DNA from: Anaerolinea thermolimosa
GTDB lineage: Bacteria; Chloroflexota; Anaerolineae; Anaerolineales; Anaerolineaceae
Length of the DNA stretch: 37,191 nucleotides
Direction: 5' to 3'
NCBI RefSeq assembly: GCF_001050195.2
Contig: NZ_DF967965.1
Span: 2,755,412-2,792,602 of the forward strand
Translations under genes and position numbers: made by a program
The notes under the pieces: generated by a model
What the model was told of the DNA's origin: nothing
What the model saw: the letters and a program-made list of their open reading frames with translations, nothing else
The model's database searches: none
Shown here: in pieces, positions 3,483-34,147 of the stretch
Position numbering within the stretch: the stretch's first letter is position 1
Layout: the number at the start of each line of letters is the position of its first letter

Positions 3483-4817
<1,335 letters not shown>

Positions 4818-7832: not shown

Positions 7833-8879
7833 ATGGACTCCATCGAGCGCACCTACCGCACCCTGCATTTTGAGCCCACCGACCGGGTGCCGGTGAGCCT
7901 GCCAGACTTTCTGGTCACTGCGCGCCTCATGGGCGCGGCTTCCTTTGCCGACTTTTTCCATGATGGTGACGCCATGGCAGAAGGGCAACTCCTGGCCTGG
8001 CGTCGCTACGGGCACGATGTCCTCATTCTGGAAAACGGCACCGCCGCACTCGCCGAAGCCTGCGGCGTGCATGTCACCTATCTTTCCGACACCGCCCCGG
8101 TGGCGCGGGAGCCTGCCATCACCAGCCTGGATGAGGTAGAAAAACTGAAACTCCCCGATCCATACCGTGATCCGATCCTGAAAGAACTTCTCAAAGCCAC
8201 CCGCATCGTGGTGCAAGAAACTGCCGGGAGGGCATTCGTGATGGGGCGGGCCGACCAGGGGCCATTCAGCCTGGCCTGCGAAATTCGTGGCATGGAAGCC
8301 CTGATGATGGACCTGGCCCTGGGAGAACAACCCGAGAAAATTCACCGGTTGCTGGATTTCTGCCGCCAGGCAGTCACCCGGTTTGCCCTCGCCCAGGTGG
8401 AACAGGGAGCGCACTGCACCTCTATCGGCGACTCCCCTTCCGGCCCGGATGTACTCTCACCCCGCTTTTACCGCCAGTTCGCCTGGCCCCATGTTAAGAC
8501 CCTGTGTGCTGAACTGAGCCAGAAAAAGGTGCTCCTTTCTTATCATATCTGCGGCAATGCCACCCCCATCCTTGCCGATATGGTTGCCACCGGCGCCCCG
8601 ATGATTGAAATCGACCAGAAAGCAGACCAGAAGGCCTGTAAAGCCGCCGCACGGGGCAAAGCCACCCTCATCGGGCCGGTAGACCCCAACGCCGTCATGG
8701 CCATGGGTACCCCGGATCTGGTGCTCGAGAAATGTAAAGAAGCCATTGAAAACTTATCCCCCGGCGGCGGGTTCATCCTTGGGCCAGGTTGCGCTCTACC
8801 GGCCACTACCCCCGATGATAACATCCTCGCCATGGTCGAAGCGGCTAAAAAATATCCGCCCAAATTTACTGCAGGTTAA
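7833..8879 (+). CDS. URO-D superfamily methyltransferase, MtaA/MtbA-like (methylcobamide methyltransferase type)
   Basis: 348 residues from ATG 7833, which is preceded by GAGG; a TTG 18 bases earlier has no such site. The fold is that of uroporphyrinogen decarboxylase, but it groups with corrinoid methyltransferases, because it keeps the zinc site used to activate a thiol acceptor: His238 and Cys240 in YHICGNATPIL and Cys320 in GPGCALPATTPDDN. The opening RTYRTLHFEPTDRVPV and GDSPSGPDVLSPRFYRQF are typical of this branch. Known relatives move methyl groups from methyl-corrinoid protein to coenzyme M or another thiol. No corrinoid protein gene is in the window. It is 5 bases upstream of the glycyl radical enzyme and surely co-transcribed, so the two probably share a pathway. 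True heme-pathway HemE is unlikely. Confidence 0.8.
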   Translation: MDSIERTYRTLHFEPTDRVPVSLPDFLVTARLMGAASFADFFHDGDAMAEGQLLAWRRYGHDVLILENGTAALAEACGVHVTYLSDTAPVAREPAITSLDEVEKLKLPDPYRDPILKELLKATRIVVQETAGRAFVMGRADQGPFSLACEIRGMEALMMDLALGEQPEKIHRLLDFCRQAVTRFALAQVEQGAHCTSIGDSPSGPDVLSPRFYRQFAWPHVKTLCAELSQKKVLLSYHICGNATPILADMVATGAPMIEIDQKADQKACKAAARGKATLIGPVDPNAVMAMGTPDLVLEKCKEAIENLSPGGGFILGPGCALPATTPDDNILAMVEAAKKYPPKFTAG

Positions 8880-12325: not shown

Positions 12326-15493
<3,168 letters not shown>

Positions 15494-15509
15494 TCAATTC
15501 TGCAACCCA

Positions 15510-16601
15510 TCATCGATGCCGCGAGGCATCTTCTTCGGCCAGGGTGCGTAAAAAGTTCGAGACCTCATCCGGCCTGGCATACGCCCCTTCCCAGGGGTTG
15601 ACCACCAGCAAAAAGCCCTTGCCGCCCAGTTCGCGCACAATGCGGCGTGCCCCATCCGGAGTGACAAACACCTGGCACAACTTTCCGCCATCTCGAATGC
15701 GCTTCAGCAGCGGCAGCCACTCTTCGGGCGGGGGCGCGCCGTCTCCCGGAATCCATTGAATTCCCCTCAACCGTTCAATGCCCAGCAACAGGTCGAGATG
15801 GGGAATCTCTCCCTTGCCATCCAGATGATAAAAGCCGTGGTCGAGATAGGCACAGCAGGATTCCAGGTCTGGCAAAACAAAGCGTTTGAACATCGCCGGA
15901 GAAATCATGTACGAAAAATCACACTGGAGCATGTACGTCTTCCCGGTTGACCAGATCGGCGCCCAGCAGCTCGTCCCCCGGCAGGCAGGGCGGATAATCT
16001 GGTACAGCTCATCGTAATAACGTATCCAGAGTGAAGTAATCTGCCTCACCAGGCGGTCCACTTCCTCGGGATAATCGATCAGGTCAACGAGCAAATCCTG
16101 GGTATCACGGAAAGAAGCCAGAATATCCAGGTTCCCTCCCAGATCGGTATGAGCAACAGCCAGCTGATCACCAAACCGCTCAACCAGCCTGGCCGTGATA
16201 TCTTTGACCCGCTTCCACCAGATATTTTCCGGGTCGTATTCGAATTGAATTTCCTGAATGGGGCGCCTGACTTTAGGTCTGAACCAGACCGTCTCCGAAG
16301 GCTCGGTAACACTGTGCACCTCCGAACCGAGAAAACCCGCCACAATCCCCGGGCCAAAATTGACCCACAGCCACGGGAAGGCATCGGCGTAGAAGCGCAC
16401 TCCTGCCAGATAGCGCGCATAGATCTCCACCACCTGTTCCGCGGGCATTTCCAGCGGATAATTGCTCATATACCCCAGCGGCGCGGGCACAGAAGGATCA
16501 GGCAAAGCCAGATACACCAGTGGCCGATCCAGTTCCCCGGCCCACCAGGCCATTGTGTCGCGTTCCACGCGATCCCAATCTTCGCGGGTGAAATTCAACA
16601 T
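15510..16601 (-). CDS. URO-D superfamily protein of unknown function, lacking the zinc-ligand cysteines
   Basis: 363 residues from ATG 16601, chosen because AGGGAGGGG stands just before it; the frame extends 57 bases further up through a hairpin. The sequence has the uroporphyrinogen decarboxylase-like barrel pattern (for example HTDLGGNLDILASFRDTQDL, DFSYMISPAMFKRFVLPDLE, FYHLDGKGEIPHLDLLL). Where MtaA-type proteins have HxCG, it has HLDG, and no C-terminal GPGC is seen, so thiol methyl transfer is unlikely. It is not heme-pathway HemE by sequence. Such proteins occur near glycoside hydrolase genes in several phyla as I recall, with no established role. It lies between two GH2 genes on the same strand, which points to a part in sugar catabolism. 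No specific reaction is proposed. Confidence 0.65.
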   Translation of the reverse strand: MLNFTREDWDRVERDTMAWWAGELDRPLVYLALPDPSVPAPLGYMSNYPLEMPAEQVVEIYARYLAGVRFYADAFPWLWVNFGPGIVAGFLGSEVHSVTEPSETVWFRPKVRRPIQEIQFEYDPENIWWKRVKDITARLVERFGDQLAVAHTDLGGNLDILASFRDTQDLLVDLIDYPEEVDRLVRQITSLWIRYYDELYQIIRPACRGTSCWAPIWSTGKTYMLQCDFSYMISPAMFKRFVLPDLESCCAYLDHGFYHLDGKGEIPHLDLLLGIERLRGIQWIPGDGAPPPEEWLPLLKRIRDGGKLCQVFVTPDGARRIVRELGGKGFLLVVNPWEGAYARPDEVSNFLRTLAEEDASRHR

Positions 16602-16613
16602 ATCCCCTCCCTT

Positions 16614-16643
16614 CACGGGCGCAGCCGTGTGACTGCGCCCGTG
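16614..16643 (-). promoter_or_regulatory. Intercistronic 10-bp perfect hairpin before the URO-D-like gene
   Basis: CACGGGCGCA (16614-16623) and TGCGCCCGTG (16634-16643) form a perfect GC-rich stem with a 10-base loop. On the minus strand it sits 19 bases after the upstream GH2 stop and ends 3 bases before the AGGGAGGGG ribosome binding site of the next gene. No T-run follows, so it is a likely mRNA processing, stability or translation control element and not a terminator. Confidence 0.6.
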
Positions 16644-16662
16644 TACCCATGAAATCAATTCA

Positions 16663-20091
<3,429 letters not shown>

Positions 20092-20188: not shown

Positions 20189-21232
20189 TTACTGCCGGGC
20201 CAGGATCTCCGATACACCCGTTAGAGAAAGCTCACGCGCCCGATGGCATTTGACAAAATGACCCGGCTTCACCTCTTCAAGCTCTGGCTCTCTGGTCCTG
20301 CATAGATCTACCGCATAAGAACAGCGCGGATGGAAATAGCATCCCGAAGGCGGATTGGCCGGGCTGGCCACCTCGCCGGTCAGCAGTACGCGCTTCTGAC
20401 GGGGCCGCGGGTCTGGAAGAGGAATGGCCGACATCAACGCTTCGGTGTACGGGTGCATGGGATTGGTATAAAGCTCCCTGGTCTCGGCCATTTCTACCAT
20501 CTTTCCCACATACATCACTGCCACGCGGTCGCTGATGTGAGCCACCACGCTCAGATCATGCGCCACGAACAGATAAGTCAGACCAAGGTCTTCCTGTAAA
20601 TCCTGGAGAAGGTTTAGAATCTGCGCCTGCACCGACACATCCAGCGCCGAGACCGGTTCATCGCAAACCACGAACTTGGGATTTGGCGCAAGTGCCCGTG
20701 CCAGACCGATGCGCTGGCGTTGCCCACCGGAAAACGCATGTGGGTAGCGGCGCATGTATTCAGGGCGCAACCCCACCCGCCGCAACATTTCAGCCACCCG
20801 GTCTTCCAGCTCACTGCCATGAGCGATGTTCATCGCCCGTAAAGGTGCACCTACAATGTCCAGCAGCGTCATCCGGGGATTCAGCGAAGCATACGGGTCC
20901 TGGAAAATCATCCGCATACTCCGCCGTACCACCCGCAGTTTTTCATCATCCAGTTGGGCTACGTCCACCCGCCCAAGGTGGGGATCTCGAAAGAACACCG
21001 AACCGCTGGTTGGATTGATCGCGCGCAGAATCGAGCGCCCGGCAGTGGTCTTCCCACAGCCACTTTCTCCCACCAGCCCGAGTGTCTCACCTTCCATAAT
21101 ATAAAAGCTGAGGTTATCTACCGCTTTCACATGCCCCACCACCCGTTTAAAGTAACCACGGCGGATGGGGAAAAACTTCTTCAGGTCGACAACTTCCAGC
21201 AAAGGTTCAGCAGTTTGTACCTGATCTGTCAT
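20189..21232 (-). CDS. Oligopeptide/oligosaccharide ABC transporter ATP-binding protein, DppF/OppF type
   Basis: 347 residues from ATG 21232, which has GAGGGA six bases upstream; an in-frame ATG at 21250 is less well placed. Complete ABC ATPase: Walker [10 protein letters not shown]-loop [14 protein letters not shown], signature [14 protein letters not shown], Walker [14 protein letters not shown]-loop FVAHDLSVV. The C-terminal Opp/Dpp extension has the cysteine-rich patch ([18 protein letters not shown]) that binds an Fe-S cluster in some family members. It pairs with the DppD-type ATPase just upstream to power import. It is the last gene of the transport operon. Confidence 0.92.
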
Positions 21233-21265
21233 GCTTGTTCCCTCACTCATTTCTGGCCGCCCTGT

Positions 21266-22324
21266 CTAGTGGGAGGTATAGAGATGGCAGCGCACCATAT
21301 GCCCGGGCGCGGCTTCAATTTCCGGCACTTCGACTTCATCGCACACCCCGCTGATCATCACGGGGCAACGTGGATGGAAGGGGCATCCCTTCAAGCGCGC
21401 ATAGGGATCGGGCACCATCCCCTTAATCACGTTCAGGCGGCTTTTCTCCTGCCGGGTAAGCGCATCGCGCAACTGGGGAATAGAAGTCAACAGTGCCTGC
21501 GTGTAAGGGTGCAGGGGGTGGAAGAACAACTCCTTCACATCTGTCTTTTCCACAACCCGCCCCAGGTACATCACCGCTACTTCCTGTGCCATTTCGGCAA
21601 TCACCCCCAGGTTATGGGTGATATACATGATTCCCATTCCAAGCTCTTCTTGCAATTCGCGCATGAGCTTGAGAATCTGAGCTTCCGTGGTCACATCCAG
21701 CGCTGTGGTAGGTTCGTCCGCAATCAGCAACTGAGGGCGGCAACTGAGGGCCATGGCAATCACAGCACGCTGGCGCATCCCCCCGCTGAGCTGAAAGGGA
21801 TATTCATCCACCACACGCTCCGGGTTCGACATGCGCACCCTGGCCAGAATATCAATGGTCATCTCGCGGGCTGTCTTTTTATCCACCTTCTGATGGAGAA
21901 TAATCGCCTCCATAATCTGCTGGCCCACGGTGCGCACCGGGCTCATGGCCGTCATCGGCTCCTGAAAGACAATGGAGATGTAATTCCCACGAATATTGCG
22001 GATCGTCTCCCCGTTCGGGTCTACCTTGGCCAGGTTAATGACTTCTGCCTGTGACGAGCTGCCATCCTTGGGCACTTTATAGAAGAAAATATCTCCTCCG
22101 ACGATCTTTCCCGGTGGACTCACCAGACGCAGGATGGAATAAGCGGTAATGCTTTTTCCACAACCGCTTTCGCCCACAATTCCCATCGTTACACCACGGT
22201 TAACTGTGAGGTTAACCCCGTCCACCGCGCGAACCACCCCTTCCGCCAGGAAAAAGTAAGTGCGCAGGTCTTTGATCTCAACCAGAACGGATGAATTCTG
22301 AGGTGTAGTATGTTGCTCTGGCAT
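21266..22324 (-). CDS. Oligopeptide/oligosaccharide ABC transporter ATP-binding protein, DppD/OppD type
   Basis: 352 residues. Walker A GESGCGKS, Q-loop IVFQEPMTAMSPVRTV, signature LSGGMRQRAVIAMAL, Walker B LLIADEPTTALD, H-loop YITHNLGVIAEMA, and the C-terminal cysteine patch KGCPFHPRCPVMISGVC. A short insertion (FYKVPKDGSSSQAEVINLA) sits between Walker A and the Q-loop. It lies 10 bases after the DppC-type permease gene and 33 bases before the DppF start. As with the rest of this set, sequence alone does not separate peptide from sugar import; the GH2 genes downstream favour oligosaccharides. Confidence 0.92.
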   Translation of the reverse strand: MPEQHTTPQNSSVLVEIKDLRTYFFLAEGVVRAVDGVNLTVNRGVTMGIVGESGCGKSITAYSILRLVSPPGKIVGGDIFFYKVPKDGSSSQAEVINLAKVDPNGETIRNIRGNYISIVFQEPMTAMSPVRTVGQQIMEAIILHQKVDKKTAREMTIDILARVRMSNPERVVDEYPFQLSGGMRQRAVIAMALSCRPQLLIADEPTTALDVTTEAQILKLMRELQEELGMGIMYITHNLGVIAEMAQEVAVMYLGRVVEKTDVKELFFHPLHPYTQALLTSIPQLRDALTRQEKSRLNVIKGMVPDPYARLKGCPFHPRCPVMISGVCDEVEVPEIEAAPGHMVRCHLYTSH

Positions 22325-22334
22325 AAGGCACCTG

Positions 22335-23498
22335 TTAAGTTACATAGGGATCTGCGGCGTCGCGCAGGCCGTCGCCCAGGAAGTTGAACATGAGTACCGC
22401 CGTCACCACAAAAACGGTAGGCCACAGAAGCCACGGTAATTGCGAGACCGTCTGGATGGTCTGAGCATCCTGCAACATCACCCCCCAGCTGATGGTAGGT
22501 GCGCGCAATCCAATCCCCAGGAAGCTGAGCGATGTCTCACCCAGGATCATCCCCGGAATGGAAATGGTCAGCGAAACGATGATGTAGCTGGCAAAACCGG
22601 GAAGCATGTAGCGCGTGATGATGCTCCATTCACTCTCACCGTCCAGCCTGGCCGCCATGACAAAGTCTTCTTCACGCATACTGAGCATCTTTCCACGCAC
22701 CGTACGCGCCAGGCTCGTCCACCCAAAGATGGAGAGAATGATGGTGACGAAGAAGTAGGTGCGCAGTTGAGGCCAGTCTTGCGGAAGTGCCGCTGCCAGC
22801 GACATCCACAGGGGAATTTGCGGTAACGAGATCAGGACGTCGATGATGCGCATGATCACCTCATCAACGACCCCGCCAAAGAACCCCGCCACACCGCCGA
22901 GCAATAACCCGAAGATAAACGAGAGGGCCACACCGATCAATCCTACCGTAAGTGAGATGCGCCCCCCGAAGAAGATACGCGAAAGAAGGTCCCGCCCCAG
23001 GCTATCGGTGCCCAGAAGGAAGAAGGGGTAAGGCTTGGTAATATCCGGCTGATCGATTCCAATCAGGTGTCGATCCCAGGAGAACAGCCCCCACAGTTTA
23101 TAGGGGTCACCTTTGGCAAAAAACTTGACGGGTAAAATGGTGTTAAAGTCGATCTGATACACCGGGCGCAAAGTCACCGGATCGCGTCCGAAGACCATAT
23201 TGTAAACAAAAGGCCCGCGGAAATTCCCGTTGTAATCAAAAAAGTAAATTTTCATGGGAGGCATTGCCGCATATTCCTTCATGCGATGCAATGGGTCCCA
23301 TGGTGAAACCACCTCGGCAAAGATGGCAATCAGATAGAAAATAGAGAGCACCACCATTGCCAGTTGAGCCAGTTTATGGCGCCGGAATTTCCACCATACC
23401 AGCTGCCACTGGCTGGCACGGTAGAACGCCTCGTCTTTGGTGATGACCGGCGATCCATTGTTCGGTACTTCTACCTTAGGCATGGTCGTCTCGCTCAT
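22335..23498 (-). CDS. ABC transporter permease, DppC/OppC type
   Basis: 387 residues, longer than the usual 290-310. The extra length is a large extracytoplasmic loop between the first transmembrane helix (LAQLAMVVLSIFYLIAIFAE) and the HLLGTDSLGRD-type motif (here FFLLGTDSLGRDLLSRIFFG). The binding-protein-dependent transport domain follows (RISLTVGLIGVALSFIFGLL and others) with the ATPase-contact EAA-like loop near AARLDGESEWSIITRYMLPG. The enlarged loop may contact the solute-binding protein. It overlaps the DppB-type gene by four bases (ATGA), with ribosome binding site GGAGGTG, so translation is coupled. Confidence 0.92.
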   Translation of the reverse strand: MSETTMPKVEVPNNGSPVITKDEAFYRASQWQLVWWKFRRHKLAQLAMVVLSIFYLIAIFAEVVSPWDPLHRMKEYAAMPPMKIYFFDYNGNFRGPFVYNMVFGRDPVTLRPVYQIDFNTILPVKFFAKGDPYKLWGLFSWDRHLIGIDQPDITKPYPFFLLGTDSLGRDLLSRIFFGGRISLTVGLIGVALSFIFGLLLGGVAGFFGGVVDEVIMRIIDVLISLPQIPLWMSLAAALPQDWPQLRTYFFVTIILSIFGWTSLARTVRGKMLSMREEDFVMAARLDGESEWSIITRYMLPGFASYIIVSLTISIPGMILGETSLSFLGIGLRAPTISWGVMLQDAQTIQTVSQLPWLLWPTVFVVTAVLMFNFLGDGLRDAADPYVT

Positions 23499-24496
23499 GA
23501 CACCTCCAACCCACCAAAGCGAATACGCGGATCAAGAGCCGCCAGCATCAGGTCTGAAATCAGGCTGCCCAGGGCGGTGAGGGTACCAATGATAACGATA
23601 TACGCCCCGGCAGTATACATATCCTGGTTCATCAAAGCGCGCCAGAGAACCGGCCCGGCTGTATCCAGGTTCAGCACAATCTCAACCACCGTGCCGCCCG
23701 AGAAAAACCACACCAGCAACCACCCAAAGGTGCTCACGATGGGGTTGATGGCAATCCGTACGGGGTAGAGCATCAACACTTTGAATTCCGAAAGCCCTTT
23801 CGCGCGGGCAACGGTCACGTACTGCTTGCGCAGTTCATCGAGCATCGTAGCGCGCAGGGTGCGGATCAGATTCGCCGTGCCACCAATCGCAAGAATGATC
23901 ACCGGCAGCCAGATGTGTTTGAGAAAATCCACAAATCTGGCCCAGCTCCAGGGGGCGGTCTGGAATTCCTGAGAGAAAAGCCCTCCCACCTTCAGGCCAA
24001 ACCAGGAATAGGACACATACATTAAAACCAGCGCCAGTAAGAAGCCAGGAACCGCCAGCCCAATGAACCCCAGGAAGGTGAAAAAGTAATCGACCACAGA
24101 GTATTGCTTCACCGCTACCAGGATCCCTACCGGGATGGCAAACGACCAGCAAACCACAAAGGCCAGAAAAGCAATGAAGAAGGTCATCCCCATGCGTGAC
24201 CCGATGATCTCATTGACTGGCTTACTGAACACGAAGGAATAACCAAAATCTCCCTTCGTGACAATATTCGTGATCCACTTTAAATACTGGAGATGCATGG
24301 GTTTATCCAGACCATACATTTTGGTCAACCGCTGCACCTCTGCCTCATCAACCGTATACCCCGATGCCCTCAAACGATTAAGGCGCTCTGTTAAAAAATC
24401 TCCCGGGGGCAACTGAATAATGATAAACGCCAGCACTGAAATAATTAAAACCTGCGGGATCATCCGCAACAAACGCATCAAAATATAATTTACCAT
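23495..24496 (-). CDS. ABC transporter permease, DppB/OppB type
   Basis: 333 residues, six predicted transmembrane helices starting with YILMRLLRMIPQVLIISVLA. Typical DppB features are the N-terminal RLLRMIP, DFGYSFVFSKPVNEII before the core domain, and the EAA-like loop RATMLDELRKQYVTVARAKG. It forms the channel together with the DppC-type protein. The ribosome binding site is a very strong GGAGGTGA. It is separated from the solute-binding protein gene by 115 bases that contain a long hairpin. Confidence 0.92.
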   Translation of the reverse strand: MVNYILMRLLRMIPQVLIISVLAFIIIQLPPGDFLTERLNRLRASGYTVDEAEVQRLTKMYGLDKPMHLQYLKWITNIVTKGDFGYSFVFSKPVNEIIGSRMGMTFFIAFLAFVVCWSFAIPVGILVAVKQYSVVDYFFTFLGFIGLAVPGFLLALVLMYVSYSWFGLKVGGLFSQEFQTAPWSWARFVDFLKHIWLPVIILAIGGTANLIRTLRATMLDELRKQYVTVARAKGLSEFKVLMLYPVRIAINPIVSTFGWLLVWFFSGGTVVEIVLNLDTAGPVLWRALMNQDMYTAGAYIVIIGTLTALGSLISDLMLAALDPRIRFGGLEVS

Positions 24497-24611: not shown

Positions 24612-26702
24612 CTACGCACGCACGCCGCCCTCATAGAAGAAGGCTTCGGGGTGGTAGGTGGAAAGACCGTACGTATCCCAGCCGATGTAGGCCTTGGCCG
24701 GAGGCAGGTTCCGCAGGTTCTTGTTGAACAGCAGCGGTGCGGGGCACTCGAGCACCAGCCCAATCTCCAGCGGGTTGTCAGCCAGCCAGTCAAAGATTTC
24801 CTGGCCCAGCTTCACACGTTCATCTTCCGAGACCACCGAGGTCATCTGGTCGTAGATGTTAAGCAGTCTCTTGATGTGATCCGGGGGTTCCACCAGTCCG
24901 GGGGCCGACTTATCAGGAGCCTGATACCACTGCGCCCACTTGGCGGCCGGGCCTGCCTGGCCTTCGTTCGTGGTCGGGATGAACCAGCACATTTCGATGG
25001 GCATCAGCATGTCGGTGCAGCGGTCGGCGTGCCAGACGGTAACCTGAACCTGTCCGTTCGTCTTCCGTTCAACCAGGAGCGAGTCCTGCACCTCTTTGGT
25101 GGTCGCATCAATCCCTACCTCGCGCCAGTACCCGATGATCATTTCGGTGATCTTGGGCACCGCCGGTCCAACACGGATGCCGGAGTGTTCGAGGTTGTAG
25201 GTGAGCTTGGTGCCATCCGGGCGGGTGCGCATGCCATCGGGGCCTTTCTTCAGACCCATCTCATCCAGCAGGCGATTGGCTTCCTCCGGGTCATACTGAG
25301 CATAGGCCGTACCGTACTTTTCCTTATAGTACTTGGAAGCCGGCATCGGTGACATTTGCCCCATGCGCGCCGTGCCAAAGAAGATCGTCTGGTTGATCTC
25401 CTCGCGGTCGATCGCCAGCGAGAGCGCCTTGACAAAGCGCGGATCGTTGACAATATCGTACAACCCCTGATCCAGCTTGCCATCATCCGTGAACGGCGCG
25501 TGGTTGGGGAAGATCGTCACCCGGTCGCCCATGCAGGAGATGTAATCACCGACGATGAAGTTCGCCTTGGGTTCGTTCTCTTTGTAGAACGGATACTCCA
25601 TCATGGTCACTTCATGCTGACCAAGGATGTCGAGCTCGCTCTGCGCTACTTTAAGCTTGGTCACCTCGGTGTTGGCGGCGTAATCGAAGCGCATCTTGTC
25701 AATATAGGGGAGCTGATTACCCGCTTCGTCAACCTTCCAGTAATAGGGGTTGCGTTCCCACAGGTAGATACCCTCTTTCGGGTGCTCGACCACGTTCCAG
25801 GCCATGAATTTGGGGAACTCGATCACGCCATCCGGCCCGCCCCAGACACCCGGTACCACCTTGGAGTTGTAATACTGCACCCAGGTCTCCAGTTTGGCAG
25901 CCTTGGCGGCTTCTTCCAGCTTGGCCTTATCGGTGTATTTGGCATGGAATTGCTTGAGGTAGTGGCTGGGGAAGATGAAGCCATCATTGCCCGACCAGCG
26001 GGTCATGTGAGCGGCAAAGTTTCCGAAGGGCACCACAAAGGTAAAGCGGAAGGTGTAGTCATCCAGGATATCCACCTTCATGTTTTCGCCGCCGAAGCGG
26101 AACTGCCACCATGGTGCGGCATTGATGTCGGTATCGGCCATGTGATCTTCCCACCAGAAGCGTACATCCTCGGTGGTGATCGGCTCGCCATCCGACCACT
26201 TCATGCCCTTGCGCAGGCGCATCGTCCAGGTCTTGCCATCGGGAGTAACTTCCCAGCTTTCCAGCACGTTGGGCACAATGGTCTTGCCATCCTGGTCTGA
26301 ATAGACCAGCATGCGCTCGACGATCAGGTCGTAGGCGCTCACCCACCAGACCGGGTCAAACATATTGACCCGCAACTCACCACCGTAGGTACCAATCGCC
26401 TGGCGATTGCTCACCACCAGCGGGTTCTCGGGCAGGCGTTCTTCCAGCGGCGGCAGCTTACCGCTATCCACCAGCGGTTGCAGCATGGGGGGTTCTTTGA
26501 CGGCAGCGGGCATTTCCGGCGCTTTGGTCGGCTCAGCCTGAGGCTGCTCGGGGGCTTTGGTCGGTTCGGCCTGGGGTTGTTCAGCGGCCTGTGTGGGGGC
26601 TTGCGTCTCAGGCGGTTTGGGGCTGCAGGCCGCAGCCACAGCTCCAAGCACAGCCACCGATGACAGCTTGATAAAATCTCGACGCTTCAACTTGCGGTCC
26701 AT
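24612..26702 (-). CDS. ABC transporter solute-binding lipoprotein, family 5 (peptide/oligosaccharide type)
   Basis: 696 residues. The N terminus has both a twin-arginine motif (KLKRRDFIKLSS, R7-R8) and a lipobox ending at Cys26 (LGAVAAAC), so it is probably exported folded by Tat and lipid-anchored. A Pro/Glu-rich linker with two copies of QPQAEPTKAPE (about 36-65) acts as a tether. The SBP_bac_5 domain fills the rest (VVPNVLESWEVTPDGKTWTM, RLRKGMKWSDGEPITTEDV, ALSLAIDREEINQTIFFG). The length is above the usual 500-600. Relatives in Thermotoga and other anaerobes bind beta-linked oligosaccharides, and the linked GH2 genes fit this. Ribosome binding site GGAGGAAAG. Head of the transporter operon. 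Confidence 0.92.
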   Translation of the reverse strand: MDRKLKRRDFIKLSSVAVLGAVAAACSPKPPETQAPTQAAEQPQAEPTKAPEQPQAEPTKAPEMPAAVKEPPMLQPLVDSGKLPPLEERLPENPLVVSNRQAIGTYGGELRVNMFDPVWWVSAYDLIVERMLVYSDQDGKTIVPNVLESWEVTPDGKTWTMRLRKGMKWSDGEPITTEDVRFWWEDHMADTDINAAPWWQFRFGGENMKVDILDDYTFRFTFVVPFGNFAAHMTRWSGNDGFIFPSHYLKQFHAKYTDKAKLEEAAKAAKLETWVQYYNSKVVPGVWGGPDGVIEFPKFMAWNVVEHPKEGIYLWERNPYYWKVDEAGNQLPYIDKMRFDYAANTEVTKLKVAQSELDILGQHEVTMMEYPFYKENEPKANFIVGDYISCMGDRVTIFPNHAPFTDDGKLDQGLYDIVNDPRFVKALSLAIDREEINQTIFFGTARMGQMSPMPASKYYKEKYGTAYAQYDPEEANRLLDEMGLKKGPDGMRTRPDGTKLTYNLEHSGIRVGPAVPKITEMIIGYWREVGIDATTKEVQDSLLVERKTNGQVQVTVWHADRCTDMLMPIEMCWFIPTTNEGQAGPAAKWAQWYQAPDKSAPGLVEPPDHIKRLLNIYDQMTSVVSEDERVKLGQEIFDWLADNPLEIGLVLECPAPLLFNKNLRNLPPAKAYIGWDTYGLSTYHPEAFFYEGGVRA

Positions 26703-26916
26703 TCTCTTTCCTCCAATGTTTCAGTCAAAAAGGAAATCTGAAGTTTCTATCCGGTGAACGCCACCGGCACCAAATTGGGTCATCGCGTCTGTTCTTCCTT
26801 ATCCTCTACCCTCCATTATTTTACAAAATATGGCTTCACTTTAGCATAGCATCCTGAATCACGAAATTCTTGCACTTAACGGACATGGTTTTGGATTATT
26901 AGGACATATCACCCGG
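26703..26916 (-). promoter_or_regulatory. Control region of the transporter operon
   Basis: This 214-base region, the longest without a gene, holds from far to near: a GTCC direct repeat with 21-bp period (26880-26905), an AT-rich stretch with a possible promoter TTGTAA, 17 bases, GATAAG on the minus strand, a small hairpin in the likely leader (CCGGTG/CACCGG, 26751-26767), and the ribosome binding site. The promoter is weak, as expected for activator-dependent transcription. The hairpin has no T-run. Confidence 0.5.
26880..26905 (-). promoter_or_regulatory. Candidate AraC-type operator: GTCC direct repeat, 21-bp period (copy B)
   Basis: Minus strand: GTCCT then GTCCG, starts 21 bases apart; on the plus strand GGACAT occurs twice, 21 bases apart. 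Between the repeats, A at +2, AAT at +5 to +7 and CAA at +9 to +11 are shared with copy A at 30495-30520. Direct repeats two helical turns apart are the usual layout of AraC-family activator sites. It is 178 bases upstream of the solute-binding protein start. Confidence 0.55.
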
Positions 26917-29463
26917 CTACTCCACCTCGTCTCCAAAGTCCAAACGCAGGAGATAATCCTCCGTACGCACCTCCATCTTCTCGCAGGGCAAAGGAGTCTG
27001 CGTGAAAGGATTATCGAAGTGCAGGAAGCCATGCAGGGGTTGTTCCTCGCCATTGACGACGAAGGGGTCCTCCCAGCCAAAGGTCAACACATCACCCCTG
27101 ATCGTCTCCCATCTCACCTGCTGTCCATCCACATGCAGAGGAGCCGCCAGCACTTTCTGCTGGAAGGAGGCAAAATCTCCATCCAGCGCTGCCCTCCCAA
27201 GCTGACAGAGCCAGATGTTCTCCAAACCTTCAGAGCGTAATTCGCGGTATGCTGTTCGGCCACTGTCGGCAATTTGCATACCGTTCACGGCTATGAGCGC
27301 CAGATAACCCTCTCCCTGCCGGGCAAAAGCCGCGTTCCCCTGCAGGGCATACTCGTCAAACGAGCGGGTCGGGAAATAAGCGTGGGTAAACGGCATCCGA
27401 ACATCCGTAGGGAGCCTATAAAGGGCAATCAGAGCATCTTTCCACTGAGCCACTCGCGGCAGCACGCCATTACCAAGCCAAAAATTGGGCGTGTGGATAT
27501 CGTTCTCCTGTGCGCACCCCGGATGATTGACGAACACCGGTGCCTGCGGCCCCAGGGTGGCCTGCCAGATATGTTCACGCGCCCCCCGTTCACCGGGGCG
27601 ATAGTCCTGCGCTGAGCAGAGCATGGCATCGGGCGTTCGGTAGGTGACCTTGTTCACTGCCCTGTCAGCGCAACCCTGCTGTTCCCGGCTCCACATCTCG
27701 CCGGGCAACCCGGCGGCAATATCGGCGATAATGGGCGGAAGTTCATACTTCCGCATACACGCCAGGCTTACTGTACCGGCGATGTGCCGGTTGAATACCC
27801 CCATTCCCCACATTAACCGGGTAATCCCGCTGGTGGCTTCCAGGTACCCGCTCTTCAGGCTCCAGGTCGTGGCCCAGCCGCGAGTCGATCCGAACACTCC
27901 CCGGAAAGAATTGAGCGCCAGCGAGAAAAAGATTTTATCCATCAGCACCGATCCAAGTTCCCAGACGGCCTCCGTGCGCGCCAGATCAACCAGGAAAGCC
28001 AGAGCCGTCAGCGTATCTGCGTAGATTTCCGGCGCATCCCAGCCAGTGAATCCCCACCGGCCGTGCTCTTTCATCCACGCCAGGGCACTGGTCTCGCCCC
28101 GCTTTCGCAACATGGTACCGGTGATCCCCAGCGGCTGAAATGTCGCCTCGGGGTAGAGTTGACCGGCCAGAATCTGGCACACCGCGCGCAGGAAGCTGGC
28201 ACTTTCGGCGGGCATCAGCGAAGAATCAACCGGAGGTACCTCAACCGGGAAGGCATATTCAATCACCCCCGCCTTGATCTCCTTTTTAATCCACCGTGGA
28301 AAGTCGGGCTTGCTTCCAAACCTGCCCACAGCCCCCAGTAGCCCTAAAAGCTGGCGTTCGCTGGCAATTTCCTGCCTCTGGATACTTTCCAGAGCGCCAA
28401 AGATCACCTGACGGTCAACCTGTTTCCAGCGGCCCAGGGCCATTTTCGCAATTTCTGCAAACAAATCTTCTTCACGCCGGGCGGCATCGATCAACGCTTC
28501 CTGACGCCGTTCTTCGATACTGCCATAAGGCCCATCTGAAAACCGGTTGCGCCCCATCACCCAGGCAGGCAATTTTTTGGTCACGCGGATATGCGTGTCG
28601 TACATCTCCCAGGCCCGCGGCATAAGAAAGGCATGGTAGGGGCCTTCCAGGAGCGAAACCGAATCACCCAGGAACAGCGCCTGCCCCGGTTCACCCACAG
28701 CTTCGGCCTGTCCATAGATACGCCCCGTGGTGGTTTGAAAACGCACGTCCTGGTAGACCTCTTTTTCGATCCAATCCGGCCAGTGCAAGTAAACCTCCTG
28801 CCCGGCCGCGTAAACATCACGGTCAAGGTACACCTGGTTGAACACCCGCTCCAGATCATTGCGCCGTTCCAGTGCAGGAATCAGGGTGGGAATGTGCACC
28901 TGAATCCCGTCACCATCTACACGGAGCGCCATCACCAGCAATGCATCAGGAGCAGCAATTCCACCGAACCGCACCAGAACATCATTGGCCCCGTCCCTGA
29001 GATCCACTGTGAAGCTGGTCTCCACAGGCACATCAGACAGCGGCGCCCACTGGAAAACCCGCTCCTCATTGACCCAGACATCGGCCACACCCGCCGTGAT
29101 CAGCGTGAACGTCACCAGGCGGGCCTCAGAGCTGACCAGCTGAGTGTACGCCCAGGAACGAAGGTAAGCCCCACCGGCCACCGCCTGGGAATGATCAACC
29201 CAGTGGTCTTCCAGGCAACGATAATAAGACCATTCGCCTTCATACGCGCCAATTTTGAACTTCCCTTCCTGCAGTGGGCCACACTCCACCGGCTGACGGG
29301 TAATACCCGAGCGTTCATCGGCAAAGGAGGCCACGATCTGGCGTTTCTCTTCCTCGCTCAGAGCCACCAGCGGCCTGCCCGGCGAAAGGCTTTGCGGCCC
29401 TGCCACAAGCCAGTTATGAATGAACCCCTTCTCCAACGGATAAACCACATACGATAATGTCAT
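26917..29463 (-). CDS. Large protein of unknown function in the carbohydrate locus (possible alpha/alpha-toroid polysaccharide-active enzyme)
   Basis: 848 residues from ATG 29463, which has GGAGAA just upstream; a TTG 21 bases earlier is worse. I do not recognise a family. No signal peptide or transmembrane segment is seen, so it is cytoplasmic. The N-terminal third is beta-rich, with a carbohydrate-binding-like pattern (ITAGVADVWVNEERVFQW, DLRDGANDVLVRFGG). The middle (about 370-620) is helical, as in an alpha/alpha toroid. The last third is beta-rich again, with conspicuous polar motifs HPGCAQENDIHTPNFWLGNG, AYFPTRSFDEY and GEGYLALIAVNGMQI, reminiscent of the C-terminal sheet of heparinase-like lyases and GH toroid enzymes. 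It lies 75 bases downstream of the small membrane protein gene and 12 bases before operator copy B. A lyase or hydrolase acting on an imported oligosaccharide is a guess. Confidence 0.75.
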   Translation of the reverse strand: MTLSYVVYPLEKGFIHNWLVAGPQSLSPGRPLVALSEEEKRQIVASFADERSGITRQPVECGPLQEGKFKIGAYEGEWSYYRCLEDHWVDHSQAVAGGAYLRSWAYTQLVSSEARLVTFTLITAGVADVWVNEERVFQWAPLSDVPVETSFTVDLRDGANDVLVRFGGIAAPDALLVMALRVDGDGIQVHIPTLIPALERRNDLERVFNQVYLDRDVYAAGQEVYLHWPDWIEKEVYQDVRFQTTTGRIYGQAEAVGEPGQALFLGDSVSLLEGPYHAFLMPRAWEMYDTHIRVTKKLPAWVMGRNRFSDGPYGSIEERRQEALIDAARREEDLFAEIAKMALGRWKQVDRQVIFGALESIQRQEIASERQLLGLLGAVGRFGSKPDFPRWIKKEIKAGVIEYAFPVEVPPVDSSLMPAESASFLRAVCQILAGQLYPEATFQPLGITGTMLRKRGETSALAWMKEHGRWGFTGWDAPEIYADTLTALAFLVDLARTEAVWELGSVLMDKIFFSLALNSFRGVFGSTRGWATTWSLKSGYLEATSGITRLMWGMGVFNRHIAGTVSLACMRKYELPPIIADIAAGLPGEMWSREQQGCADRAVNKVTYRTPDAMLCSAQDYRPGERGAREHIWQATLGPQAPVFVNHPGCAQENDIHTPNFWLGNGVLPRVAQWKDALIALYRLPTDVRMPFTHAYFPTRSFDEYALQGNAAFARQGEGYLALIAVNGMQIADSGRTAYRELRSEGLENIWLCQLGRAALDGDFASFQQKVLAAPLHVDGQQVRWETIRGDVLTFGWEDPFVVNGEEQPLHGFLHFDNPFTQTPLPCEKMEVRTEDYLLRLDFGDEVE

Positions 29464-29516
29464 TTTCTTCTCCACACAAAACAAAGGGTAAGGTCAGATC
29501 GAACAGTTTGCCAGGC

Positions 29517-29534
29517 AGCCCCCGCCCGGGGGCT
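29517..29534. terminator. GC-rich hairpin after the small membrane protein gene
   Basis: AGCCCCC (29517-29523) and GGGGGCT (29528-29534) form a 7-bp stem with a GCCC tetraloop, four bases past the stop of the 29539-29988 gene. CTTTTC follows only on the plus strand, the wrong side for these genes. A pause or 3'-end stabiliser on the minus strand is more likely than full termination. Confidence 0.4.
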
Positions 29535-29538
29535 CTTT

Positions 29539-29988
29539 TCAGGAAAGATGAGGTTTACGGCTCGAAAGATAAATGGTTCCCACCCCAACCGTCAATTCAA
29601 CCGCCAGAAGTACCCAGCGCATCCAGGGTAAGGGGATGGGATCAACCCAGATCGCTTTAACGGCATCGGCCAGGAAGATCAATAACACCTGTGGGCCCAG
29701 CACCCGCCCCACACGCCGCCCCAGGTCACCCTTTTTTACTCCTGTTCGGAAATAATTTTCCACCAAAATCATCAAGATCACCCAGATCAGTCCGGTGCCA
29801 AAGACAAAAACCCGGTCGACCAGCTGAGCCTGAAAGCGGCGCTGGAAACTTTCGCCAATATAATAAAGGCCCAGCACGCCCAGCAGGGCATCGCGGCCCA
29901 GCAACATGAACCCGAGCCAGAGCAGGAACGAAACAATCCACATGGTATAAGCCAGGAGATACCCTGACCATTGTTGAAGCTTCTTCAT
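29539..29988 (-). CDS. Small membrane protein of unknown function
   Basis: 149 residues with four hydrophobic segments: LLAYTMWIVSFLLWLGFMLL (two parts), VFVFGTGLIWVILMILVEN, VLGPQVLLIFLADAVKAIW and WVLLAVELTVGVGTIYLSS. Charged loops RRFQAQ and RTGVKKGDLGRRVGR are positive and probably cytoplasmic. No catalytic motif is seen and no family is recognised. It has ribosome binding site GAAGGA and a TAGAAT -10-like element 13 bases upstream of the ATG (30002-30007). It lies between the pseudo-receiver and the 848-residue protein on the same strand, 32 bases from the former. Confidence 0.7.
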   Translation of the reverse strand: MKKLQQWSGYLLAYTMWIVSFLLWLGFMLLGRDALLGVLGLYYIGESFQRRFQAQLVDRVFVFGTGLIWVILMILVENYFRTGVKKGDLGRRVGRVLGPQVLLIFLADAVKAIWVDPIPLPWMRWVLLAVELTVGVGTIYLSSRKPHLS

Positions 29989-30020
29989 GGCATCCTTCTC
30001 GATTCTACTCTTTTAGAAGT

Positions 30021-30392
30021 TTAAATGCCTAACCTGGAAAGCACCTGCAGGAAATCACCATACAGAACGGGCATTTGCAGATGGATGTCCGCCCGGGCAC
30101 TGGATTGCCCATCGGTTTCTCCCTGCCAGGAACACACCACCACCGGAATGCACGCAGTAAACTTGTTCGATCTAAGCCCCGGTAGAATAGTGCGGCTATA
30201 AATCGAAAACGGGCCGGCTTCCATGACGATCAGCGCTGGCTTTTCACTCATGGCTACCGCAATCACGGCCTGTTCATCAGGAGCGGAGAACAGCAAGGGG
30301 TGCGCCGATTCAACCACATACCTGCGCATCAGATAACAGAAATGGGAATCGACGCCAATGACCAGGATGCTGTTGTTGCTTGAATGACTCAT
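30021..30392 (-). CDS. Stand-alone pseudo-receiver domain protein
   Basis: 123 residues with the alternating beta/alpha pattern of a response-regulator receiver: NSILVIGVDSHFCYLMRRYV, then KPALIVMEAGPFSIYSR, IPVVVCSW and a final ADIHLQMPVLYGDFLQVLS. The phospho-acceptor Asp is Glu58 (VMEAGP), the acidic pair is reduced to one Asp in the first loop, and the conserved Lys-Pro is Met-Pro. It therefore cannot be phosphorylated in the normal way and may be locked in an active-like state or used as a binding partner. It has a good ribosome binding site (GGGGAGG) and is the first gene downstream of the hybrid regulator, separated by 131 bases that hold operator copy A. Confidence 0.7.
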   Translation of the reverse strand: MSHSSNNSILVIGVDSHFCYLMRRYVVESAHPLLFSAPDEQAVIAVAMSEKPALIVMEAGPFSIYSRTILPGLRSNKFTACIPVVVCSWQGETDGQSSARADIHLQMPVLYGDFLQVLSRLGI

Positions 30393-30494
30393 GGCCTCCC
30401 CGTAGGTTCATCCGCCTGCCAGTAGAAAAGAAAAGCAGGACATTCTCCTTTCTCTAAATGGTAATAATCTCATCCGTTAATTTCTTCCACTATT

Positions 30495-30520
30495 CGGACG
30501 AACACTTGTATTTCTCGGAC
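30495..30520 (-). promoter_or_regulatory. Candidate AraC-type operator: GTCCG direct repeat, 21-bp period (copy A)
   Basis: CGGAC at 30495-30499 and again at 30516-30520 on the plus strand (GTCCG twice on the minus strand), exactly 21 bases apart. 16 of 26 positions match copy B upstream of the solute-binding protein gene. It lies between the regulator stop and the pseudo-receiver gene, about 103 bases before that start, so the regulator may drive the genes behind it. A single GGACAT occurs closer in, at 30438-30443. Confidence 0.55.
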
Positions 30521-30523
30521 AAT

Positions 30524-33500
30524 TCAACCCCGCTGGCTTTGCACATAAGCCCGCGGTGAAATACCCACCTCCTCACGGAAGACACGCGTGAAGTACCCTC
30601 CAGAAGAAAAGCCCGCTTCCATCGCCACTTCAGTAATGCTCAGTTTTCCCTGATCCAGCAGGCCTTTGGCCACTTTGACCCGAAACCGGTTGAGATACGT
30701 GATCGGAGAAAGCCCAATTTCATTCTGGAAGCACCGCGCCAGGTGCCGCTCGCTCACCCCCACATGGGCGGCAATATCACTGCGCGAAATGTCTTCCTTA
30801 TAATGAGAGTGAATGTACGCCATTGCCTTCAAAACCAGCCGCTGAGATTCCGTCCCCGGTTTCCGCGAGCGCAGCAGAGCGGTGGTTAACGTTTCGAGCA
30901 TTTCTTCTCGGGTAAAAATTCCCTTGCTGAGAACCGCTGTGGCCCCCTGGTTGAGGCGTTGAATATCTTCCTCGGTAAGCGCCTGACCGGTAACCACCAC
31001 TACCGGAATGTTGCGGCTGGCCTCACTGGCACGCAGGGCATCCAGAACCGCAAACCCGTCCATCTCCGGCATCATTAAATCCAGAAGGATCAGGTCAGGG
31101 CGCTCTTGCTTCACCCTTTCAAGCGCTTCGCGCCCACTGCTGGCCAGCAATACCCGGTTATCAGACGATTGGGCTTCGACAATCCGCCGATGTAAATCCA
31201 AAATCCCCGGGTCATCGTCCACGATCAACACGGTTTTTCCTTGAGGTTGCTCTTGCCCGGTGAGACCACTCTGAATATCGAGTGACATCAGCGCCTCGGT
31301 AAGTAAGGCTGCATCCACCGGCTTGGTCATGTAATTCAACTCCAGCAGGGCCCCTGCTCCCTCTCCTCCATCCTCCAGCGCATAGAAGAAAACCGGCACA
31401 TCCGCAGTGGCTGGTTTTTCTTTCAAATGTTTCAGAATATCCCAGCCCCATTTACTTGCAAGGCCTCGATCCAGAATGACCGCTTCTGGGGGGGCCTGGT
31501 ATATCCAGTCTCGCCAGCTCTTCTCGTCCTCTGCCATTTGCAGGTTCACTTCGAACCCTGCATTGGAAAGGTGCCCCCGAAGAACCTCACCGGCCTCCCA
31601 TTCTTCAACCAGAATCAACACCCGCTGGCGGTCTTCCAGAACATTTCCGGGTTCTTCTACCGGGACGGGACGATCAATGACCGGGAGGGTAAAATAAAAC
31701 ATGGAACCTTCCCCTTCTTTCCCCGAGGAACACACGGCCAGTTTTCCACCGTGCATTTCTACCAGCCGCCGACAAATCGAAAGCCCCAGGCCAAATCCCC
31801 CAAAACCTCGCGCTGTGGTGCGGGAAGATTGTCGGAATTCGTCAAAAATAACCTCCTGTTCCTCCGGGGGAATCCCCAATCCCGTGTCGCTGATAGCCAC
31901 CGTCACCTGATGGTCTTCGACAAAGGCTGTCAGCAAAACGTATCCCTGCTGGGTGAACTTGACCGCATTGGTGATCAGATTCAAAATGATCTGGCGCAGG
32001 CGGGTACGGTCACCAAGCACCCAGGGAAGATGACGTGGGTATTCAGCAGACCAGGCCAACCCCTTATCTCGCGCAAGTTGCTTTCCAATCACCGCAACCG
32101 AATCCAGCACCTCGCGCAGATCCAGCGGCTCGCAGGAAAGGCGAATTGTACCCACATCCAGGCTGCTTAATTCGATCACATCGCGAATTAACCCATCCAA
32201 ATGCTGGGCGCTGATATAAATACGCTCGAGGTCTTCCCAGTTCACACGCGCTGTACCGTTCTGATGGGTCTCCCGTTCTCGCAAGAGCATATTACTCAGC
32301 CCGGAGATCAGGTTGAGGGGAGTGCGCAATTCATGGCTGACCATGGAAAGAAAACGGCTCTTTAAGCGGTTGGCTTCTTCGGCTTCTCGCCGCGAAGCCA
32401 GCGCCTCCTGGTACAGGCGGATACTCTTGATCGCCGCCATAAGCTGTCCGTTGACCAGCCCAAATTGCTCCAGGTTACTCCCTTCATAGGCCACAAAACC
32501 TTCCGTCTTTTCCCCCGATTGTAGCGGCAGCAAGACCAGGTTAAACGGTTCAAAGGTCGAGTACAGCCCCGCCGGAGGGAACTGGCGAGTCACAAACCGG
32601 CGTTGACCACTGTTTGCCTCCGTCCCAACCGCCTGACGGCTCCAGGCAAATGGATCGTTGTTTTCTTCCTCATAAAAGAAAACCTCGGCATGACGGATTC
32701 CCAGAAGCGGCATGAACCGATGAAAAACATCAATGAGACCTGCCTCGCTGCCCGCCGCAAAGAACTGAGCCATCATCAGGCTGTTCACCTGAGCCAGAGA
32801 TGAGCTGTGTACCAGGTTGCGATAGGACTCGCGCCGGGCCAGGTCGCTGATCGCCACCCGCGCCTGGTCAAGCATCTCTTCAGCCAGCCGATGACGCCCC
32901 GACCCCTTACTGCCAAGGATCTCTCCAAGTCCCTCACGGAGAACGGTAATTGCCTTCTGGCAGACGTGTAAATCTTCTCCCCGCATTGATAAGAAATCTA
33001 AAACCTGCTGGAGCGACTCTCGAAACCGCACCGGCTCCTGGGTTTCAATGCTGGCAAAAAAGTTTTCGGTCAGGCGCCGGCTTAACCGCTCGACTTCATG
33101 CAACGCCATCAATCCCACATCATTGAACAGCGCGTTGGCTATCAGTTCGCTCAATTCATCCTTCAGAGTCACACCGGAGGCGTGCCCGGTGCCTTTCCCC
33201 AGGCTTCCTGCCGCAGAGCCTTCCACATCTCCCGGCAGACAACCACACGACTCGCGAATCACCAGTCGCGTCGACACATGCACCACCGGGGGATTCCTGT
33301 CTTCACCGGTGAGAATTTCATGCAACACTTCTGCCGTGCGATATCCCATCTCAAACATGGGATAATGCACCGTGGTTAAGGAAGGCACATTGGCTCGTGC
33401 CTCCAGGCGATCGTCAAAACCGACGACCGCCACGTCATGAGGGACATGCAGACCGGCTTCGCGCAACACATCAATCGCCCCGATAGCCGATTGATCATTA

Positions 33501-34147
33501 CTGGCAATCAGGGCGCTGAAGGGACGTTTTTTGGCCAGCAACCGTTGCATGGCCTCGCGGCCGCCCGCCTCGTTGTGATACCCATACTCCACCAGCTCAG
33601 GATCGTAAGGCAGGCCGGCATCAACCAGTCCCTGCATGTATCCTCGCAGCCGGGCAAGGCTATCTCCCTCCAGGTTAGAACGCCTCCCTGCAATAAAGGC
33701 AATCTGCCGGTGGCCGTGTTCAATCAGGTGAAAGAGAGCCTGCCTGACGCCATTGTAGTTATCCACCATGGCTCCTGGCCCGGCCTGCCAGTCACCGGTA
33801 TAGGCTACCGGGAACCCCCGCGCCTGCAGATCCCGGATATAGTCTAACCCGGCCAGGTTATGAAAAGGGGGAATAGCCAGAATGCCATCGCAGTTCCAGT
33901 GACCTACGGGGACGAAATCGACATCGGGGAGGTTTAATGGCCAGGCCGGCCGATTGACGCTGGTGTGTACCCCTGATTGCAACACACCACAACCGATCAG
34001 CAGATTCCAGTCTAATTGCCGGGCAGCTGCCTGGATCCCCCGGATGACGTTGGAGAGAAAACTATCCAGAACACCAGTATAAGCCTGCCACCCGGCAAGA
34101 ACACCGATGGTAAACCGGCGCCGCCGCGCTATGGGATACATGTTCAT
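30524..34147 (-). CDS. Soluble hybrid regulator: LacI-type sugar sensor, histidine kinase, two receivers, AraC DNA-binding domain
   Basis: 1207 residues, a whole phosphorelay in one chain. Order: LacI-type periplasmic-binding-like sensor (about 12-320; FTIGVLAGWQAYTG, HGHRQIAFIAGRR, VAVVGFDDRLEARANVPSLTTV), helical and GAF-like linker (about 340-590), HisKA with His605 (MVSHELRTPLNLISG), HATPase (NLITNAVKFTQQG, SDTGLGIPPEEQ, GGFGLGLSICRRLV), receiver 1 (Asp893 in VILDRG, MTKP), receiver 2 (VDDDP, Asp1023 in LLDLMMPEMDG) and an AraC domain (about 1104-1207; IAAHVGVSERHLARCF, AMEAGFSSGGYFTRVF). There is no LacI helix-turn-helix, signal peptide or transmembrane helix, so it senses a cytoplasmic ligand. 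The ATG 34147 (or 34141) has no Shine-Dalgarno, and an in-frame stop 15 bases upstream excludes longer forms. It probably controls the genes downstream through the 21-bp repeats. Confidence 0.9.
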   Translation of the reverse strand: MNMYPIARRRRFTIGVLAGWQAYTGVLDSFLSNVIRGIQAAARQLDWNLLIGCGVLQSGVHTSVNRPAWPLNLPDVDFVPVGHWNCDGILAIPPFHNLAGLDYIRDLQARGFPVAYTGDWQAGPGAMVDNYNGVRQALFHLIEHGHRQIAFIAGRRSNLEGDSLARLRGYMQGLVDAGLPYDPELVEYGYHNEAGGREAMQRLLAKKRPFSALIASNDQSAIGAIDVLREAGLHVPHDVAVVGFDDRLEARANVPSLTTVHYPMFEMGYRTAEVLHEILTGEDRNPPVVHVSTRLVIRESCGCLPGDVEGSAAGSLGKGTGHASGVTLKDELSELIANALFNDVGLMALHEVERLSRRLTENFFASIETQEPVRFRESLQQVLDFLSMRGEDLHVCQKAITVLREGLGEILGSKGSGRHRLAEEMLDQARVAISDLARRESYRNLVHSSSLAQVNSLMMAQFFAAGSEAGLIDVFHRFMPLLGIRHAEVFFYEEENNDPFAWSRQAVGTEANSGQRRFVTRQFPPAGLYSTFEPFNLVLLPLQSGEKTEGFVAYEGSNLEQFGLVNGQLMAAIKSIRLYQEALASRREAEEANRLKSRFLSMVSHELRTPLNLISGLSNMLLRERETHQNGTARVNWEDLERIYISAQHLDGLIRDVIELSSLDVGTIRLSCEPLDLREVLDSVAVIGKQLARDKGLAWSAEYPRHLPWVLGDRTRLRQIILNLITNAVKFTQQGYVLLTAFVEDHQVTVAISDTGLGIPPEEQEVIFDEFRQSSRTTARGFGGFGLGLSICRRLVEMHGGKLAVCSSGKEGEGSMFYFTLPVIDRPVPVEEPGNVLEDRQRVLILVEEWEAGEVLRGHLSNAGFEVNLQMAEDEKSWRDWIYQAPPEAVILDRGLASKWGWDILKHLKEKPATADVPVFFYALEDGGEGAGALLELNYMTKPVDAALLTEALMSLDIQSGLTGQEQPQGKTVLIVDDDPGILDLHRRIVEAQSSDNRVLLASSGREALERVKQERPDLILLDLMMPEMDGFAVLDALRASEASRNIPVVVVTGQALTEEDIQRLNQGATAVLSKGIFTREEMLETLTTALLRSRKPGTESQRLVLKAMAYIHSHYKEDISRSDIAAHVGVSERHLARCFQNEIGLSPITYLNRFRVKVAKGLLDQGKLSITEVAMEAGFSSGGYFTRVFREEVGISPRAYVQSQRG

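Follow-up and report, generated by a model that had tools for sequence, protein, structure and literature searches.

We analyzed a 37,191-nucleotide stretch of the Anaerolinea thermolimosa genome (contig NZ_DF967965.1, forward-strand positions 2,755,412 to 2,792,602; hereafter the window). Its minus strand carries the gene of a large AraC-type regulator, the genes of a carbohydrate locus, and two tandem-repeat elements, sites A and B, that are predicted to be operators of that regulator. The features central to this reading are given below in window positions.

30524–34147, minus strand: regulator of 1207 residues (Pfam: Peripla_BP_3, a LacI/GalR-type sensor; HisKA; HATPase; two receiver stretches; HTH_18/HTH_AraC)
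30479–30520, minus strand: site A, predicted 42-bp tandem operator (half-sites about 30505–30520 and 30484–30499, period 21 bp; kept in relatives G003, G057, L042, and L043)
30458–30463, minus strand: predicted −10 box TACCAT of the site A promoter, with the second half-site covering the −35 position
26864–26905, minus strand: site B, predicted 42-bp tandem operator (half-sites about 26890–26905 and 26869–26884, period 21 bp; kept in relatives G003, G057, and G001)
26843–26848, minus strand: predicted −10 box TATGCT of the site B promoter, immediately preceded by TGC, a trait of extended −10 promoters

The original prediction was of two GTCC direct repeats with a period of exactly 21 bases located at gene starts. 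Both pairs were borne out on the minus strand (30496–30520 and 26881–26905), with 16 of 26 positions common to the two copies when aligned in register, and the sites do lie at gene starts, 86 and 161 bases upstream of the next predicted start codons. The preceding stop codon is 3 and 11 bases before the start of each site. The predicted 26-bp extent had to be revised: both pairs are real, but that interval truncates the second half-site. The likeness runs 16 bases further and gives a full operator of 42 bp, the two 42-mers being identical at 27 of 42 positions (23 for the best other 42-mer of the window against either site). Likewise, the AAT and CAA said to lie between the repeats are present, but they belong to half-site 1 and their counterpart in half-site 2 falls outside the 26-bp interval. 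That there is no third pair was upheld by a matrix scan of the window, in which the next score was 12.4 compared with 46.1 and 49.2 for the two sites.

When each 42-mer is split into two 21-mers, every 21-bp unit contains one half-site of approximately GTCCnAnAAnTnnAA, or roughly GTCC-n-A-n-A-A-n-T-n-n-A-A-(G). The G after AA is present in 8/8 second units and in 2/8 first units. All nine sites found in the window and its relatives align without gaps at period 21, and GTCC is exact in both units in eight of them. The half-sites are bipartite, with boxes about 10–11 bp apart and AAG at positions 14–16 of the second unit in 8/8. Because the boxes are about 10–11 bases apart and the half-sites 21 apart, all four boxes fall on one helix face. 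An AraC-type dimer, each subunit of which has two helix-turn-helix motifs, fits four boxes on one DNA face.

The bare repeat GTCC-N17-GTCC is not above chance in the window (2 occurrences versus 1.31 expected, with 40 of 100 shuffles reaching 2) and occurs 48 times in the 4.17-Mb genome compared with 904 occurrences of a reversed control pattern. Being at chance level in both window and genome, it was discarded as evidence. The genome scan called for in the original prediction (the GTCC pair with inner AAT and CAA plus a final G) gave exact matches only at sites A and B, the next best matches to this 26-bp pattern being four places with two mismatches each. At up to three mismatches the 26-bp pattern has no specificity (78 genome matches versus 201 for the reversed control). 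A pattern extended to the 42-bp element, with up to three mismatches allowed and the AAT set one base off, occurs only twice in the 4.17-Mb genome, and no equally good matches were scattered inside genes across the genome.

Conservation was examined in relatives. An order-wide pattern built from the four sites of the window and of G003, an assembly of the same genus, was run at up to two mismatches against 400 genomes of the order, a sample that omits some genomes of the family, G001 among them. Three genomes matched (the window's, G003, and G057) with two matches each, and the reversed control gave one match. Four of these six matches arise by construction, both G057 matches are independent, and 397 genomes had no match. 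A regulator at least 50% identical to that of the window was found in 3 of 147 family genomes (up to four candidates per genome were scored), and these are the three genomes that matched in the order sample; the next regulator was 43% identical. In G003 the regulator is 55% identical, the gene order is alike as judged by the layout of open reading frames, and both sites stand at matching places. In G057 the regulator is 50% identical and both sites were found. The G057 regulator is on contig C209 (from base 32) and the sites are on contig C56, the nearer about 200 bases from the contig end; with both near contig ends, they are presumed to adjoin. Two other assemblies, L042 (Anaerolineae bacterium, regulator 51% identical) and L043 (Anaerolinea sp., 50%), each carry a site where the regulator gene ends, on contigs that stop before the place of site B. 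Site A is at the regulator gene end for all five regulators found with at least 50% identity, the window's included (by presumed adjacency in G057). The solute-binding protein encoded behind site B was found at E ≤ 1e-150 in 4 of 147 family genomes and the site precedes its gene in 4/4, again including that of the window. Site B of G001 is independent in that this genome was used for no pattern or matrix.

In total, nine sites were found in six genomes, five A and four B. A matrix trained on four of them gave the other five scores of at least 29.0; the best score elsewhere was 17.4 among 2,092,382 positions, which are the fetched DNA on both strands, with loci that overlap and repeat each other. 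A lack of conservation in orthologous promoters, named beforehand as a result that would count against the prediction, was not seen: the sites are kept at both places. Several loci share a weak minus-strand match at about 15.8–16.2 kb, which had the look of conserved coding sequence and was set aside. In site A of G057, an additional GTCC precedes the first half-site by about 10 bases (L082 near 8658–8720, minus strand). In L042, the last bases of the regulator reading frame (stop at 4137) fall within site A (4104–4145), which makes the operator partly coding there.

Downstream of the half-sites TAnnnT occupies columns 58–63 in all eight sites of the alignment, with G at column 56 in seven of the eight, and the ninth site, that of G001, found later, has TATGGT at the same offset. 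In 20,000 shufflings of the flanks, TAnnnT never appeared at one offset in more than four of the eight. Counting the letters of the −10 box, the flanks of A and B sites agree at 7 to 19 of 38 positions. The hexamer, which we predict to be a −10 box, begins 20 bases behind the AAG box in 9/9 sites. With a 17-base spacer the −35 hexamer is at columns 35–40, inside half-site 2, and since TAnnnT stands at one fixed distance in the nine sites, the second half-site covers the −35 position. The predicted −35 position begins with AAG in 9/9 and reads AAGnAT in 6/9; none is TTGACA-like. The fixed −10 box suggests that the sites are operator-promoters, the geometry is consistent with an activator-dependent promoter, and the operator-promoters probably serve activation.

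The genes behind the two sites are as follows.

30021–30392, minus strand: first gene behind site A, 123 residues; receiver-like by eye (degenerate), no Pfam or NCBIfam match
29539–29988, minus strand: second gene behind site A, 149 residues; hydrophobic segment (19-residue mean 2.09), no Pfam or NCBIfam match
26917–29484, minus strand: third gene behind site A, 855 residues; no match in Pfam or NCBIfam
24612–26702, minus strand: first gene behind site B, family 5 solute-binding protein (PF00496)
20189–24496, minus strand: Opp-type ATP-binding cassette (ABC) transporter, two permeases and two ATPases
12326–20076, minus strand: two glycoside hydrolase family 2 (GH2) LacZ-type β-galactosidases (16663–20076 and 12326–15481) with a 382-residue protein between them

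Both GH2 β-galactosidases exceed the NCBIfam cut-off for Bga2A. Strand and spacing point to two operons, one behind each site, with the GH2 genes presumably ending that of site B. An open reading frame similar in size and place to the first gene behind site A (131–146 residues) follows the site in G003, G057, L042, and L043. The TTG start of the 855-residue protein is doubtful, an ATG lying a few codons on, and this protein of a carbohydrate locus is possibly a member of an undescribed glycan-active family.

We consider it very probable that both elements are operator-promoters of a small local regulon activated by the neighboring 1207-residue regulator. The original prediction, that the sites are the regulator's operators for carbohydrate genes, is supported at the level of sequence by their rarity in the genome and their conservation at both places. 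Upon the sites, their conservation, their co-occurrence with the regulator, and the fixed −10 geometry we infer a mechanism that takes in binding, dimerization, phosphorylation, activation, the extent of the operons, and the inducing sugar. The LacI-like domain would sense a sugar, the histidine kinase would pass phosphate to the receivers, and the AraC-type domain would bind, as a dimer, two half-sites two helical turns apart on one DNA face. The upstream half-site would anchor the dimer and the downstream half-site would cover the −35 position of a promoter that has a −10 box and lacks a −35 box resembling TTGACA, and because of that missing box we propose that the bound protein recruits RNA polymerase. 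The outcome would be activation of the operon directly behind the regulator and of the Opp-type transporter/β-galactosidase operon. For the Anaerolinea group, this reading supplies the fused sensor-kinase-AraC regulators with an operator, a promoter, and a regulon specific enough to be tested, and the orthologues make firm a pattern that alone sits at chance level. It would also place a pathway of β-galactoside uptake and breakdown under a known type of control in a little-studied bacterial group.

Several results weigh against this reading or narrow it. The G001 assembly (61% complete, 590 contigs) has site B and the transporter gene, and no regulator was found there at E ≤ 1e-100. Matrix scans did not find the site in relatives whose regulator is 40–46% identical, and the 300 bases before the regulator gene in 27 such relatives had no excess of 21-bp repeats (27 of 28 loci were used, one being too short); the present evidence does not extend the arrangement to the wider family as a whole. 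A matrix scan found no site before the regulator gene itself. Within the sites, the second unit of L043 reads GGCC, one exception among nine pairs, and first units are less strict in their second box, with A at position 14 in 5/8 and at position 15 in 7/8. Moreover, orthologous sites share ancestry, so the nine sites are not nine independent events.

The sites might instead be operators of another DNA-binding protein, AraC-type or a response regulator, encoded elsewhere. Two more homologues of the regulator are encoded in the genome (39% identical over residues 81–1203 and 37% over 562–1206), and the incomplete G001 assembly, with its site and transporter, is as this explanation would have it. 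However, no site turned up away from the genes of the regulator and the transporter, and every genome of the order sample that had sites also had a regulator at least 50% identical. If the sites belonged to a regulator with other duties, further copies would be expected across the genome, and none was found. We regard ownership by a different protein as unlikely. Slightly less probable again is that the neighboring regulator represses, its dimer blocking RNA polymerase until a sugar frees it. Coverage of the −35 position by the second half-site agrees with such a block, but the AAG or AAGnAT sequences at that position, none TTGACA-like, suit a promoter that needs an activator, and tandem sites of the AraC family that are in contact with −35 typically serve activation. 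A repeat that plays no part in regulation, produced by chance or by coding sequence or belonging to an RNA element, would accord with the chance-level frequency of the bare GTCC pair and can be set aside, as the full element occurs only twice in the genome and is kept in six genomes at two places, no Rfam family was found at E ≤ 0.1 in 26500–30800, and the element is upstream of the predicted −10 box and hence not transcribed from that promoter.

The proposed activation by the regulator through tandem sites has a classical counterpart. At E. coli araBAD, araI1-I2 consists of tandem AraC half-sites with a 21-bp period, with about one turn between the two boxes of each; the downstream half-site reaches the −35 region and the outcome is activation. 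AraC itself is a one-component regulator that acts with DNA looping. The Anaerolinea sites share with araI1-I2 direct half-sites at a 21-bp period, two boxes in each, and a downstream half-site at −35. They differ in that the downstream half-site covers the whole −35 position, kinase and receiver are fused into the regulator, and no additional site at a distance was found. The DNA-binding domain of the regulator matches solved AraC-family chains including AraC (2k9s) and a hybrid two-component protein (12aw).

The regulator has a histidine kinase, a receiver, and an AraC domain in one chain, as do the hybrid two-component system (HTCS) proteins of Bacteroides, in which HTH_18 is also named (PMC11253607). 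That source names a membrane sensor as part of HTCS proteins. By hydropathy alone no 19-residue stretch of the regulator exceeded a mean of 1.25, and as it has no apparent membrane sensor, and a LacI/GalR-like N-terminal domain instead, it is not a typical HTCS protein. For the hybrid two-component regulators of Bacteroides, Ravcheev et al. 2013 (PMC3878776) predicted operators that are direct repeats with a mean spacing of 21 bp. The two systems have in common direct repeats of two sites about 21 bp apart ahead of neighboring carbohydrate operons, a predicted placing of the monomers two helical turns from each other on a single DNA face, and an AraC-type domain fused to kinase and receiver. 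The Bacteroides loci have SusC/SusD whereas the Anaerolinea locus has an Opp-type ABC transporter and GH2 enzymes; the Anaerolinea sensor is LacI-like without a membrane segment, a −10 box is predicted at a fixed distance, and the operator letters differ as far as compared, the Bacteroides motif logos excluded. The Anaerolinea operator is an already-known kind of operator, here in another phylum. Judged by title and the start of the abstract, the open literature searched on hybrid two-component or AraC regulators of Chloroflexi or Anaerolineae included none on such operators, nor did the matches listed for LacI combined with kinase and AraC include any on such operators in Chloroflexota.

The first recognition-helix region of the regulator contains SERHLxRCF, which is common to the five orthologues with a site. 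SERHL was absent from the 27 other helices captured among 50 other loci given (some being the same gene in two collections) and from 15 further others that were read, 10 of which overlap with the 27; a sixteenth, L072, gave no DNA-binding domain. We suggest tentatively, and with rather more doubt than belief, that a soluble LacI-sensing HTCS relative in the Anaerolinea group shares the 21-bp tandem operator logic of the membrane-bound Bacteroides proteins, joining intracellular sensing and phosphorelay in one chain, and that the recognition-helix change (SERHLxR versus mostly S-E/D-D-Y/H-L) marks a switch to GTCC half-sites. If so, the SERHLxR change would be the first letter of a readable protein-to-DNA code for this regulator family.

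The regulator, an apparently soluble relative of HTCS proteins, has 40–46% identical relatives in many Anaerolineae assemblies. A weaker look-alike of the element (GACGC..GTACTG..CAAG, matrix score 15.4) was seen on contig C17 of G002 (L009 1110–1151, L024 8762–8803), with 21-base spacing and upstream of a 35% identical relative of the regulator; it could be a diverged operator.

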